Part shown: positions 21,010-48,752 of the stretch, piece by piece
How the letters are laid out: every line of letters begins with the position of its first letter
Numbering within the stretch: the stretch's first letter is position 1
Notes under the pieces: model-generated
Seen by the model: only the letters and a program-made list of their open reading frames with translations
Told to the model about the DNA's origin: nothing
Database searches by the model: none
Source of the DNA: Natronohydrobacter sp.
GTDB lineage: Bacteria > Pseudomonadota > Alphaproteobacteria > Rhodobacterales > Rhodobacteraceae
Direction of reading: 5' to 3'
NCBI GenBank assembly: GCA_030603695.1
Contig: JAUVXF010000011.1
Coordinates: forward strand, 1 to 64,000
DNA: 64,000 nucleotides
Program-made: the position numbers and the translations under genes

Positions 21010-21921
21010 ATGATCGGATCAGAGGTTTCGGGCCTTCTCATGGCCATCACGGCGGCGGGTGCGGGGCGCGATATCTGCGCGTTGCTTGCAGCCGTGCAGC
21101 GTTACTTCCGGGCCGATGATGCGCAACTGCGCCTGTCTGGCGCGGGGTGGGCTGTGGCTGGGCCAATAGCCGAGGGCTTGCCTCCCGTCTTTGCGGGCTT
21201 GCGCTTGGGCCGCGTCTATTCCCAAGCGGAACTGGCAGAGCGGGGCCAGACCGATCACAGGTTTGCGCCCGGCGAGGATTGCCGGGCAATCGGGCTGCGG
21301 CTGACCGAGGGCGCGGGCTGGCTTATCCTGTCGCGCGCGCGCACCGAATTTCGCGCAATTGACAGCGCCACGCTGGCCATGCTTGCGCCGCATGTGGCGC
21401 AGGCTTGTGCACTGGCAGATCAATTTTCCCAGATGCAGGCCCGCGCCCAAGTGGCAGAGCGGCATTTGCGCCTTATGGGCGTTGGAATTGTGCAGTGGGA
21501 TCGCCATGGGCGCGCAATTGCGCAAGATGCGATTGCGCGCGACATGCTTGCACGCCTGCCCGCTGGCGCCAGCCTGCCAGAACCACCGCAGGGCGTGCGC
21601 TTTTGCCATCCTGCGCCGGGCATGGATATGGTGGTGCAAGAGGGTGCGGGTGGGGCGCGGATCGGGATTTTGCGCGCCAGCACCCGGCCCTTGCCTGCGC
21701 CTGATGTTTTGGCGCAGGCGCTGGGGTTAAGCCTGCCAGAGGCCCGCTTGGCCCATGCGCTGGGCGAAGGGTGTTCCCTGCGCGAGGCTGCGGAAAGACT
21801 GGGCCTGACAGTGGAAACCGCGCGCAGCTATTCCAAGCAGATTTTCGCCAAGACAGGCGCGCGCGGCCAGCCAGACCTTATCCGCCGGATATGGGCAGGC
21901 GCGCTGCCTTTGGCGGGATAG
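21010..21921 (+). CDS. LuxR-type HTH transcriptional regulator
   Basis: 303 residues. The C-terminal ~65 residues are a LuxR/NarL HTH ([48 protein letters not shown]). The N-terminal ~200 residues have no recognised receiver or autoinducer domain. It is divergent from cysD with 89 bases between, so control of sulfate activation is plausible but unproven. Confidence 0.8.
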
Positions 21922-21995
21922 GGGTGGCGTGGTGCAGGCAGTGCTTTTTGCCACCTCAAAGACGGTTCCGTCATGAGGGGCAGTTATGGGGGGCG

Positions 21996-22187
21996 GGGAC
22001 GGTCAGAGTTGATTGCCCTGCGCGGAATCAAGGGCGAAGCCCGCCGCGCATCGCCGGGCCGCCCCCCGGCACGGCGATTTGGCTGCAACCAGCGCTTAGC
22101 TTGGGTTTCGTTCGGACATTGCCGCGATAAAGCGCAAAGCCTCAAGGTTAGATCGCCGCACCGCGGCCCGACGCTGCGCGGCTTTGC
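21996..22187 (-). repeat. Dispersed intergenic repeat, copy A
   Basis: On the minus strand this ~190-bp stretch is similar, end to end with small gaps, to 47821-48012 on the plus strand. Exact blocks include 22160-22186 (27 nt) and 22056-22090 (35 nt). It fills most of the 331-base convergent gap between the LuxR-type gene and plsY, and contains GC-rich hairpins such as GGGCGAAGCCC. No protein is conserved in the same frame without stops. It looks like a mobile small repeat or a structured RNA. Confidence 0.85.
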
Positions 22188-22252
22188 GCCCTCCCCAACG
22201 CCCCCAACCCGCTCCAAGCTGCCCTTGGCCAGCTTATGGGCGGCGCGGAAAG

Positions 22253-22867
22253 CTAGGGTTTTTCCTTCTTCTGGAAACGCGATTCCGTTCCTGCTTGCAA
22301 CCGTGCGATATTTTCGCGGTGCTTCCAGAAAATCATTGCCGCCAGCAGCGCAAACAGCGCCAGCATCTGCCCATATCCCAGCAAAAGCGCCAGCAGCGGG
22401 CTTAACCCCGCCGCCACAAGCGCCGACAGCGAGGAATAGCGCGACAGCTTGAACACCAGCGCCCAAATCGCGCAGATGGCCAGCCCCACGGGCCAAGCCA
22501 GAACCAGCGCTGTGCCAATGAACGTCGCAACCCCCTTGCCGCCTTTGAACCCCAGATACACCGGGTAAAGATGGCCCAGAAACGCCATGAGCGCTGCAAT
22601 CTGGCCTGCATCCGCGCCAAAGGCCCACCATGCCAGAAGTGCGGCCACAGCACCTTTGCCAGCATCCAGCGCGAATGTCAGAACACCGGCCAGCTTGTTG
22701 CCGGTGCGCATGACATTTGTGGCACCGATATTGCCAGAGCCGATCTGGCGCAGATCGCCCAAGCCCATCACGCGCGCAATCACCACACCAAAGGGGATTG
22801 CGCCCAGCAGATAGGCGGCCAGCCCCACCAGCGCCAGCAGCCACAGGGGATTTGTGATTTCAGGCAT
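22253..22867 (-). CDS. plsY: Glycerol-3-phosphate acyltransferase PlsY
   Basis: 204 residues, about five membrane helices. The three family motifs are present: GSGNIGATNVMR, GHLYPVYLGFKGGKGVAT and the later helical region. It transfers acyl from acyl-phosphate to glycerol 3-phosphate, the first step of phospholipid synthesis. The start at 22867 gives an 8-base overlap with the pyrC-like gene, placing plsY last in the pyrB operon. Confidence 0.95.
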   Translation of the reverse strand: MPEITNPLWLLALVGLAAYLLGAIPFGVVIARVMGLGDLRQIGSGNIGATNVMRTGNKLAGVLTFALDAGKGAVAALLAWWAFGADAGQIAALMAFLGHLYPVYLGFKGGKGVATFIGTALVLAWPVGLAICAIWALVFKLSRYSSLSALVAAGLSPLLALLLGYGQMLALFALLAAMIFWKHRENIARLQAGTESRFQKKEKP

Positions 22868-39781: not shown

Positions 39782-40192
39782 ATGCCCAGCCGAATTGCGC
39801 ATTTTGCCCTGCTTGTTCCCGATTATGATGAAGCGCTTGCGTTCTTTTTGCGTATCGGTTTTGAATGCCGCGAGGATACTGACCTTGGCCAAGGCAAGCG
39901 TTGGGTGCGCATTGCCCCAGTGGGCGCGCAAACCGAGATTTTGTTGGCCCGCGCTGTCGGGGATCAGCAAATCGCGGTCATAGGTGCGCAGGGCGGTGGC
40001 AGGGTTTGGCTTTTCCTTGAATCCACCGATTTCGAGGCGGATCATACCAGATTGCGCGCGGCTGGCGTGACATTTGAAGGCAATCCGCGCAACGAGCCAT
40101 ATGGGCGCGTTGTGGTTTGGAGTGATCCTTGGGGCAACAGGTGGGATTTGATCCAGTTCGCCCAGACTGACCTTGGAGCCGCCATCGTGTAA
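39782..40192 (+). CDS. VOC (glyoxalase/dioxygenase-like) family protein
   Basis: 136 residues with the beta-alpha-beta-beta-beta repeat of VOC proteins: IAHFALLVPDYDEALAFF, then YGRVVVWSDPWGNRWDLIQF near the end. These proteins bind a metal and handle varied substrates; none can be named here. The start at MPSRIAHF agrees with the family. Confidence 0.82.
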   Translation: MPSRIAHFALLVPDYDEALAFFLRIGFECREDTDLGQGKRWVRIAPVGAQTEILLARAVGDQQIAVIGAQGGGRVWLFLESTDFEADHTRLRAAGVTFEGNPRNEPYGRVVVWSDPWGNRWDLIQFAQTDLGAAIV

Positions 40193-40250
40193 GGCCGTTG
40201 CGCGCTTTGGCGGATGGCCACCCACAAAGGGCACCAGAACACTCGCCCGC

Positions 40251-46786: not shown

Positions 46787-47662
46787 TTAGCGTGTTGGAA
46801 CCGGCACATCACCCCGGTAATCGTAAAACCCGCGATTTGTCTTGCGGCCCAGCCAGCCGGCCTCGACATATTTGGTAAGCAGCGGGCAGGGGCGGTATTT
46901 GGTATCGGCCAGCCCGTCATGCAGCACATTCATAATGGCAAGGCAGGTATCCAGCCCGATGAAATCCGCCAGTTCCAGCGGCCCCATCGGGTGATTGGCC
47001 CCCAGTTTCAGCGATTCGTCTATGGATTTGACCGAACCCACCCCTTCATACAGCGTGTACACGGCCTCGTTGATCATGGGCATAAGGATACGGTTGACGA
47101 TGAAGGCAGGGAAATCTTCCGCACTCGCGGCAGTTTTGCCCAGTTTTTCCACCACGCCCAGCAGGGTTTTATAGGTTGGCTCATCCGTGGCGATGCCGCG
47201 GATCAATTCGACCAATTGCATGACAGGCACTGGGTTCATGAAGTGAAACCCCATAAACCGCTCTGGCCTGTCGGTGCGCGAGGCCAGCCGCGTGATGGAG
47301 ATGGACGAGGTGTTGGAGGTGAGGATTGTATGCGGGCCGATATGGGGCAGCAGATCCTCGAAAATCGCCTGTTTGACGGTTTCGCGCTCTGTTGCGGCCT
47401 CTATGATCAGATCAGACGGGCCAAGGTCGGCCAGCCGGGTGGTGGTGCGGATGCGCGCCATGGCGGCGGCTTTATCCTCTGCCGTGGTTTTCCCGCGCGA
47501 GACCTGGCGTTCAATGTTGCGGTCAATCAGCGCGACGGCCTTGGTCAACGCCTCTTCAGAGATGTCATTGAGAAGCACATCATAGCCCGCCAGCGCAAAT
47601 ATATGGGCAATGCCATTGCCCATCTGGCCTGCGCCCACCACACCGACTGTCTTGATGTCCAT
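46787..47662 (-). CDS. hbd: 3-Hydroxybutyryl-CoA dehydrogenase
   Basis: 291 residues. NAD-binding GAGQMGNGIAHIFA, SNTSSISITRLA, catalytic HFMNPVPVMQLVE. The length matches stand-alone 3-hydroxyacyl-CoA dehydrogenases that feed polyhydroxybutyrate or ethylmalonyl-CoA pathways. The start is preceded by CAGGAGAG. Confidence 0.93.
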   Translation of the reverse strand: MDIKTVGVVGAGQMGNGIAHIFALAGYDVLLNDISEEALTKAVALIDRNIERQVSRGKTTAEDKAAAMARIRTTTRLADLGPSDLIIEAATERETVKQAIFEDLLPHIGPHTILTSNTSSISITRLASRTDRPERFMGFHFMNPVPVMQLVELIRGIATDEPTYKTLLGVVEKLGKTAASAEDFPAFIVNRILMPMINEAVYTLYEGVGSVKSIDESLKLGANHPMGPLELADFIGLDTCLAIMNVLHDGLADTKYRPCPLLTKYVEAGWLGRKTNRGFYDYRGDVPVPTR

Positions 47663-47820
47663 TGCCCGGCTCTCCTGTATTGTCTGGCGCTGACCATAAG
47701 TCCGGGCGCGCATATTGTGCAAGTGCGAAAGCCTGCCCGCATTTATCACCTGACACAAGGTTTCGCTATTCGAGAGGCTGTGGGGGTGATTGGCCGTTAT
47801 GGGGGGGATGGGGACATTCA
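47663..47820. other. Upstream region of hbd
   Basis: Together with the repeat and the 47 bases beyond it, this is a 397-base gap. I see no gene here; it should contain the hbd promoter. An open antisense frame has no support. Confidence 0.4.
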
Positions 47821-48012
47821 CAAAGCCGCGCAGCGTCGGGCCGCGGTTCGGCGATCTGGCCTTGAGGCTATGTTACTTTATGGCGGCAATGTCCGAACGA
47901 AATCGAAGCTAAGCGCAGGTTGCAGCCAAATCGCCGTGCCGGGGGGCGGCCCTTTGAGGCGCGGCGGCCTTCGGCCTTGACTCCGCGCTTGGTGTTCAGC
48001 TCCAACGTCCCC
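47821..48012 (+). repeat. Dispersed intergenic repeat, copy B
   Basis: Inverted second copy of 21996-22187. Exact blocks are 47821-47847 (27 nt) and 47918-47952 (35 nt), with intermediate blocks such as GCGGCAATGTCCGAACGAAA. Here it lies between two tandem minus-strand genes (pcs and hbd), so it is not confined to convergent gaps. Confidence 0.85.
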
Positions 48013-48059
48013 CAACCGCTCGCAGCCGCCCTTCGCGCCGGTGCGGGCCATCGCCCAGC

Positions 48060-48752
48060 CTAGCGCCGCTCTGGTAGGATTTGCTGCAAGATGCCCACAC
48101 TCACCAGATACAGGCTTGTCACGATCAGCGCCCAGGTTACGGCAGCGGGCTGGCTGAAACTTTCCCATGCTGCCCAAGCGGCCAAGCCTGTCCAGACAAA
48201 GGCAATCGGCAGCGACAGGTTACGCCAGCGCATCGTGCGCACAGGGTGGATGAATTTCAGCGGTGTGAACATCGCGGCAGCCAGAAAGGCCACGATCCCC
48301 AGAATAATCCAAAACCCCGGCTGCGTGGCAAAAATCACAACTGCGGCCATGTTCCAGCAGGCAGGAAAGCCCTGAAACGAGTTGTCGGTCGTTTTCATCC
48401 GGGTATCGGCAAAATAGAGAACACTTGTGAATGTGATTACAATAATCGCAATCCAGCCGGTCCAGCCCGGCAAAAGCCCACTTTGAAACAGTGCGAAAGC
48501 GGGGATGAAAACATAGGTCAGGTAATCAATGATCAGATCCAGCAATTCGCCATTTATGGTGGGGGCATTGTGTTTCACATGATACCGCCGCGCCAGGGGG
48601 CCATCGATGCCATCCACGATGAAAGCCACGACCAGCCATAAAAACATCATCGCCCAATCGCCCTGCACCGCTTCCAACAAGGCCAGCATGGCAAAGACAG
48701 CGCCTGTTGCCGTGAAAAGATGCACGCCATAGGCTTTCATCCGATCATCCAT
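48060..48752 (-). CDS. pcs: Phosphatidylcholine synthase
   Basis: 230 residues, about eight hydrophobic segments. The CDP-alcohol phosphotransferase motif is present in its Pcs form (DGPLARR, then NGELLDLIIDY). Condenses choline with CDP-diacylglycerol. The set of organisms having this enzyme fits an alphaproteobacterium. Confidence 0.9.
   Translation of the reverse strand: MDDRMKAYGVHLFTATGAVFAMLALLEAVQGDWAMMFLWLVVAFIVDGIDGPLARRYHVKHNAPTINGELLDLIIDYLTYVFIPAFALFQSGLLPGWTGWIAIIVITFTSVLYFADTRMKTTDNSFQGFPACWNMAAVVIFATQPGFWIILGIVAFLAAAMFTPLKFIHPVRTMRWRNLSLPIAFVWTGLAAWAAWESFSQPAAVTWALIVTSLYLVSVGILQQILPERR

Follow-up and report, generated by a model that had tools for sequence, protein, structure and literature searches.

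A repeat carried in two inverted copies by a stretch of Natronohydrobacter sp. DNA is, on balance, probably a non-autonomous, dispersed and hairpin-forming intergenic element of Rhodobacteraceae, REP-like but a family of its own. The stretch analyzed, termed the window here, comprises positions 1 to 64,000 of contig JAUVXF010000011.1 in assembly GCA_030603695.1 (2.95 Mb, 40 contigs, 99.97% complete; own genome, G000; G and L numbers are genome and locus labels). Small dispersed repeats influence transcript ends and genome rearrangement, and the best known of them are short palindromes. The present repeat is larger, asymmetric and strongly covarying, has no Rfam 15 match and occurs in about half of the sampled genomes of the family, in from one to about a hundred copies. 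The family, its size, its asymmetry and its degree of covariation appear to be new, and no description of the family was found in the listed titles and abstract starts of open-licence papers. The placement itself is not new, because a preference of REPs for gaps between convergent or same-direction genes is already known from the available parts of PMC3733652 and PMC1525189.

The initial annotation, made from the letters of the window, had proposed either a structured-RNA family or a small mobile repeat of MITE or REP-like type. A REP-like dispersed element is retained on the strength of many copies, presence or absence at orthologous sites and location at gene 3' ends, and a folded single strand on the strength of covariation and strand asymmetry, while a classical MITE is unproven and a RAYT-driven REP is disfavored.

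Two copies of one repeat in the window

The minus strand of 21996-22187 had been aligned with the plus strand of 47821-48012, and this alignment was reproduced: the 193 aligned columns contain 163 identities and 2 gap columns, and exact blocks of 27 nt (22160-22186 with 47821-47847) and 35 nt (22056-22090 with 47918-47952) lie where they had been placed. Over these ranges the alignment score of the copies is 260, whereas 500 single-base shuffles reached 16 at most, and in a BLAST search of the own genome copy 2 matched copy 1 at 86% identity (E 3.9e-58). The ranges hold as the extent of the alignment, while the conserved core is narrower. The core scores below are from R1, a covariance model of 48 rows that include both window copies.

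22020..22186, minus strand: conserved core of copy 1, 168 model positions; R1 163.8 bits, E 3.1e-37 (the copy is a row of the model)
47821..47988, plus strand: conserved core of copy 2; R1 145.9 bits, E 4.8e-33 (the copy is a row of the model)
21010..21921, plus strand: gene flanking copy 1 on the side opposite to the PlsY-type gene, convergent; own gene call, no Pfam family at E 0.001
22253..22861, minus strand: glycerol-3-phosphate acyltransferase (PlsY-type) gene flanking copy 1; Pfam PF02660, E 3.6e-53
46787..47662, minus strand: 3-hydroxyacyl-CoA dehydrogenase gene flanking copy 2; PF02737, E 4.2e-60, and PF00725, E 5.6e-34
48060..48752, minus strand: gene for a CDP-alcohol phosphatidyltransferase domain protein flanking copy 2, on the same strand as the dehydrogenase gene and upstream of it; PF01066, E 5.8e-7

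Both copies lie between called genes, in keeping with the intergenic position first claimed for them, once the start of the dehydrogenase gene, which was first called at 46787-47821 and so too far upstream, is moved to its likely place near 47663. The copies were also said to share no stop-free frame; copy 1 has two open frames and copy 2 has none, and zero frames open in both does not fit a protein-coding reading. At gathering scores, Rfam 15 gave 0 matches in the window, and in nine loci it gave seven weak matches (up to E 5), none of them at a core.

Abundance and taxonomic range

A count of copies in the genome, which the initial annotation had called for, gave 57 BLAST matches, full and partial, far above two. 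They are spread over many contigs and are sometimes arranged in tandem with a period near 260 bases; the list is incomplete, as the covariance model adds C4:81190-81357. The retrieved stretches contain 62 pieces of the repeat, 49 of which cover most of the query. Match totals are not exact copy counts, because the opposite strand of a copy can match too. Neither a restriction to two copies nor a conserved reading frame, the two findings named at the outset as speaking against a repeat, was encountered.

A search of other Rhodobacteraceae, likewise called for, placed R1 matches in 152 of 296 genomes from an even draw across the family (up to nine matches scored per genome). A class-wide draw gave matches in 4 of 337 genomes, all four from the same family as the own genome; strict filters were used in both searches, and weak matches may be lost. 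Within the genus, 26 of 37 genomes, the own genome included, match the plain sequence. Four relatives yielded 121 (G034), 36, 35 and 32 matches, those of G034 falling on at least 91 separate chromosomal positions. Among the 91 chromosomal positions listed for G034, none lies in C1 1.00-1.25 Mb. Copies similar to those of the own genome were found at loci L071, L114, L122, L144 and L146. Plasmid copies occur in 93 records, 91 of which are from Pseudosulfitobacter. There were zero matches among 50,697 phage records, and the exact pattern was present in 0 viral contigs.

A covarying fold and its strand

A degenerate pattern of the 3' end was scanned against one genome per species (GTDB 220) and returned at least 115 stretches. 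We take all of the 80 titles listed to be Rhodobacterales, except one titled just Alphaproteobacteria (Carideicomes was checked). The pattern hits numbered 106; filtering on a TTTAT or TTCAT motif and on arm pairing energy left 84. A diverse subset of 52 was retained, of which 46 were aligned with the two window copies (alignment A1, 48 rows). The core folds into a long stem in two parts, with TTTAT as a conserved loop motif and a terminal hairpin on the 3' side.

RNAalifold predicted 28 pairs from the 48 aligned copies, 14 of them changed on both sides. In a 31-pair structure, 95.4% of the cells are paired and double changes affect 15 pairs and 139 cells, compared to means of 83.8%, 9.8 and 36.4 in 500 shuffles; with the partners slid, 35.6-50.5% of the cells were paired. 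Because the arm-pairing filter favors pairing, the count was repeated without it on all 106 hits. For 21 pairs, 91.8% of the cells were paired (32.8-49.1% when slid) and 251 were doubly changed (15-73 when slid); 21 of the 106 hits form fewer than 13 of the 21 pairs. The test for covariation proposed in the initial annotation was therefore positive: the stems show compensatory changes between genera in excess of those in shuffles and slid controls, in rows taken without weighting for phylogeny.

Little variation is seen in the outermost helix, in part because its 3' strand is fixed by the search pattern. The inner strand of this helix starts with GCCC instead of GCGC in 7 of 127 model matches (one of the searches covered 100 chosen loci). 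All seven of these rows have GGG in the 5' strand and six have CCGGGC in the 3' tail, a co-change by which the inner strand might pair with either side; we regard this alternative pairing as a lead and not as proof. Folding of single sequences was unremarkable relative to shuffles, with z of -0.75 and -1.59, and of -1.73 for a G034 copy with its arms.

In a duplex or a symmetric cruciform, G.T and A.C mismatches are expected about equally often in the stems. On the strand with the conserved loop and the 3' hairpin, the ratio of G.T to A.C was 47:7 among the diverse copies, 100:6 among those of the own genome and 48:3 in the stems of 36 G034 copies. Composition contributes to this excess, as slid controls gave 0.4:1 to 4:1, and in the unfiltered set, which includes rows lacking the full element, the ratio was 106:47. 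Counted as distinct events, G.T and A.C numbered 11 versus 4 and 11 versus 6, and 19 versus 20 in the unfiltered set. Since G.T exceeds A.C in the stems, one strand probably folds; the evidence for this is moderate, and composition accounts for part of the signal.

In some copies, small palindromes, often GTCATG...CATGAC, substitute part of a stem arm or of the interior, as if another tiny repeat had been inserted (L083, L088, L142, L143, L157, L158 and L175; L185 and L198 in the own genome).

Arms, inserted length and empty sites

Related arm sequences lie outside the core on both sides, and in the own genome they are of two related types, end 1 and end 2. The arms of the window copies and the stretches that contain them are as follows.

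22187..22245: end-1 arm of copy 1, on the side of the PlsY-type gene, limits approximate; arm score 46 for end 1 versus 30 for end 2
21930..22019: end-2 arm of copy 1, limits approximate; arm score 62 for end 2 versus 33 for end 1
47735..47820: end-2 arm of copy 2, limits approximate; arm score 50 for end 2 versus 18 for end 1
47989..48056: end-1 arm of copy 2, limits approximate; arm score 40 for end 1 versus 28 for end 2
21922..22252: whole gap with copy 1; 331 bases between the two convergent stop codons versus 6 in three relatives (G009, G016 and G036)
47732..48059: inserted stretch with copy 2; 328 bases from the stop codon of the upstream gene to a CTTTCGC motif versus 3 in five of eight relatives

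Both sides could be typed in 18 of 48 copies: nine read end 1-core-end 2, nine read end 2-core-end 1 and none has a same-type pair. As a control for the typing, 1 of 96 shuffled arms exceeded the score limit. Of the remaining 30 copies, 20 match neither arm type on either side, including most array copies, which carry a different spacer of about 90 bases. With regard to possible terminal inverted repeats, the two ends are related and the 18 typed copies always combine end 1 with end 2, with the limits of the element only approximate. On either side of the core, the G034 sequences look partly complementary to each other, as judged by eye. In 20 stretches retrieved to look for arms lacking a core, the search turned up fragments and altered cores only.

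Each of the two window loci shows a net insertion of about 325 bases, with approximate ends, and a difference of this size at both loci fits one unit of core plus arms. Convergent gaps in G034 have a median length of 330.5 bases with a copy and 71.5 bases without. Target-site duplications had been named as a further check; no clean duplication was found, and the element-free sites of the relatives yield no clean junctions. An early idea that CTAG is the duplicated target, taken from arm ends such as CTAGTG, was dropped because the pattern at up to two mismatches was found 50 + 29 times versus 35 + 31 for the reversed control, which is little excess, and because all three stop codons occur at the flanks in G034. 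The 9:9 arrangement was not put down to a simple inversion of the core between arms that stay in place, as the junction bases are not the same in the two orders; an exchange among copies is the better fit.

At the locus of copy 1, the region beside plsY was read in 12 relatives. It holds a copy in two closely similar relatives, G029 and G034, there facing a homolog of the gene upstream of copy 2, and none in the other ten. Genes similar to 21010..21921 lie near plsY in 6 of the 12 (L215, L216, L217, L223, L224 and L225), and the G017 stretch has a short match about 1 kb from plsY. At the junction of copy 2, the element is absent in eight of eight relatives; two weak model matches lie elsewhere in the stretches (17.0 bits in L228 and 16.3 bits in L226). 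The distance from the stop codon of the upstream gene to the CTTTCGC motif is 134 bases in one further relative, and in two of the eight the motif overlaps the end of that gene. An early view of this locus as a tight operon was wrong, as the gap between the flanking genes is 51-81 bases in seven relatives and 203 in one (397 in the own genome). Movement is read here from presence and absence alone, and absence in relatives could partly be loss.

At 47663-47731 of the window and in relatives L226-L233, a conserved CTTTCGC...TTGCAC...TATGG stretch precedes the dehydrogenase gene, with copy 2 just upstream of it; it looks like a candidate promoter.

Placement between genes

Gene calls for placement were made with a simple codon-usage script, which left 24 of 116 elements at named loci, 2 of 40 in the own genome and 1 of 36 in G034 untyped. 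Typed loci in the own genome (n = 38) comprised 21 convergent, 16 tandem and 1 divergent, and the gene pairs of the window (n = 61) comprised 12, 37 and 12, respectively. Convergent placement was most pronounced in G034, where 30 of 35 typed copies were convergent, 5 tandem and 0 divergent; in 20 stretches of this genome sampled by position, 13 copies were convergent and 2 tandem. Among element-free pairs of G034, 38 of 330 were convergent, or 18 of 96 where the gap was at least 100 bases. The named loci (92 typed) gave 53 convergent, 33 tandem and 6 divergent copies, with 85 of 611 gene pairs convergent, or 27 of 195 with a gap of at least 100 bases. With copies treated as independent, Fisher P values were 4e-20 (G034) and 1e-18 (named loci) relative to all pairs, and 3e-12 and 5e-14, respectively, relative to gaps of at least 100 bases. 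The element overlaps a gene call at 9 of 116 named loci.

In tandem contexts, the folding strand was sense in 28 cases and antisense in 26 (9:7 in the own genome, 1:4 in G034 and 18:15 at named loci). Such even orientation is what a selfish element would give, rather than an RNA module belonging to the gene upstream. Movement on the lagging strand might leave an orientation pattern along the chromosome. Replication-strand bias was considered for G034 and rejected: the 91 listed positions comprise 44 plus and 47 minus, and there was no clear switch at the sign change of GC skew in 20 sampled stretches.

The convergent enrichment (30 of 35 in G034, 13 of 15 in its sampled stretches and 53 of 92 at named loci) could also arise if the element served its host. 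As strong RNA structure in the 3' regions of both convergent genes, it would limit read-through and protect RNA ends, it would spread by selection and by recombination between copies, and its stems would be conserved through compensatory change, as they are. We nevertheless consider this unlikely. Copy 1 has no T-run terminator (0 sites of a hairpin followed by a T run in 21900-22300; shuffle mean of 1.0), orientation beside tandem genes is even, and most convergent gaps do without the element, with 13 of 51 convergent pairs in the G034 sample holding a copy. Avoidance of promoters and operons would explain the placement equally well.

A topological role is distinctly less probable. By analogy with BIME/REP sites, which are said to bind gyrase or IHF, the repeat might act as a duplex or cruciform that relieves positive supercoils between convergent genes. 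Its long inverted repeats would suit this role, as would its placement in convergent gaps, which the available part of PMC1525189 describes as prone to positive supercoiling and favored by REPs. However, the asymmetry of G.T over A.C, the asymmetric loop and the 3' hairpin are unexpected of a duplex or a symmetric cruciform. The selfish REP-like element that we favor has its own misfits here, namely the 6 of 92 typed named-locus copies in divergent gaps and the 9 of 116 that overlap a gene call.

Relation to known repeats and possible modes of movement

Excerpts of PMC3733652 describe REP units of 20-40 bp in two super-families tagged GTAG and CGTC, the latter predominating in Alphaproteobacteria and lacking a dedicated transposase. 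GTAG REPs and REPINs, as characterized there and in the available part of PMC1525189, are intergenic palindromic repeats with many copies that lie mostly in convergent or same-direction gaps, and the present repeat is placed likewise in the own genome, in G034 and at the named loci. They differ in their 20-40 bp size, GTAG tag and Y1 transposase from the 168-nt, asymmetric and untagged core found here in a genome without a Y1 match. CGTC REPs have stems of 8-9 bp and a CGTC end, whereas the present core has no CGTC end and a far longer two-part stem. The 3' hairpin of the repeat (...CTTGATTCCGCGC) only resembles the TTGATCC palindromes in L155 and L161. At these two loci, the 3' end of the repeat is close to CCCGGACTTGATCCGGG-type palindromes, which we take to resemble the CGTC-tagged REPs of Alphaproteobacteria.

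BOX elements are modular in design, and the attC sites of integrons are palindromes that fold as single strands and have the end motif RYYYAAC / GTTRRRY. The enterobacterial RU-1, RU-2 and RU-3 are small intergenic repeats, likened to MITEs in the available part of PMC2759123, and the BOX elements of pneumococcus, a different phylum, are small interspersed repeats according to an excerpt of PMC3049150; both were compared with the present repeat by description. The attC end RYYYAAC, as given in the available text of PMC8632094, and GTTRRRY are absent from the consensus ends of the 48 diverse copies (AAGCCGCG and CCGCGC). No cassette arrays were recognized at the repeat, and toxin-antitoxin genes adjoin some plasmid copies. 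Neither a target-site duplication nor a partner transposase is established for the present repeat.

Reverse transcription of a structured RNA, in the manner of a bacterial SINE, would account for one-strand folding and for the internally deleted copies that exist. The strongly kept 3' terminal hairpin, with inner strand and tail changing together in six of the seven GCCC rows, would also fit. Slippage across a hairpin can yield internal deletions as well, however, and the pattern that retrieved most rows of the 3'-hairpin comparison itself fixes this 3' end; we hold such an origin to be very unlikely. Least probable of all is a REPIN mobilized by a RAYT (Y1 HUH transposase), which would explain paired complementary arms, intergenic dispersal, and stems that differ between species with copies alike within a genome, but the 99.97% complete own genome has 0 matches to the Y1 transposase family PF01797 (a control search was positive in 5 of 14 known genomes), the core ends have neither GTAG nor CGTC, and the 20-40 bp quoted for REPs in the excerpts of PMC3733652 is several times shorter than the present unit.

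For the favored reading, many copies, lineage-specific sites, an insertion of the same length at both window sites and an evenly split orientation point to a selfish or semi-selfish repeat, and compensatory stems together with the one-strand signal point to a folded single strand at some step. Combined, these observations suggest that the folded strand may be recognized in trans, by analogy with REP/RAYT systems. One strand would fold while single-stranded, and a putative trans-acting enzyme would recognize the fold and copy or move the core with its arms. New copies would survive mainly where two genes end face to face, as we propose that no promoter or operon is disturbed there. Benefits to the host at gene ends are possible, through RNA end protection, blocking of read-through or relief of supercoiling. 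No transposase, integrase or reverse transcriptase could be tied to the element in a search that covered PF01797 in the own genome. Also set against this reading are the lack of a clean target-site duplication, the unremarkable folding of single sequences, the share of composition in the G.T asymmetry and the lack of a clear orientation pattern along the G034 chromosome.

A more far-reaching version is possible, and we put it forward tentatively: a strand-specific structured nucleic acid kept by compensatory evolution may at the same time be a mobile unit of about 325 bases at convergent gene ends, with a putative single-strand-recognizing enzyme and a core whose orientation between the arms can change. 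If true, this would combine two traits that are usually separate and define a new class of mobile convergent-gene-end element. Given the concentration between convergent genes, whether REP-like repeats serve or hide at gene ends could be tested in cultivable bacteria.

Rearrangement and gene content at copies

In G033, with a flank 90% identical to that of the own genome, the same end-1 arm lies beside plsY with the core apparently in the opposite orientation, at a contig edge. G033 has no array at either of two places in the C18 region where the own genome has arrays. L010:2195-6569 (G000 C18) and L238 (G033 C53) carry in opposite orientations a 4.4 kb segment that has HlyD-type, FtsX-type and ABC ATPase genes; each of its ends in G000 lies at a tandem array of the repeat, and its ends in G033 are without an array.

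In plasmids NZ_CP054608.1 and CP069022.1 (L234-L237), some breakpoints in gene content coincide with copies. Some copies have RelB/RelE-type genes next to them and others lack them, and one site has HipA in one plasmid and RelB/RelE in the other. The same plasmids carry a second subfamily with other stems and GCCCGG...CCGGGC ends (L236:6802-6967 and 40082-40244; L237:16340-16504). At one plasmid site, a full element (L236:3513-3678) corresponds to a 70-base mini form (L234:28588-28657), in which the interior between two ATCG repeats is missing.
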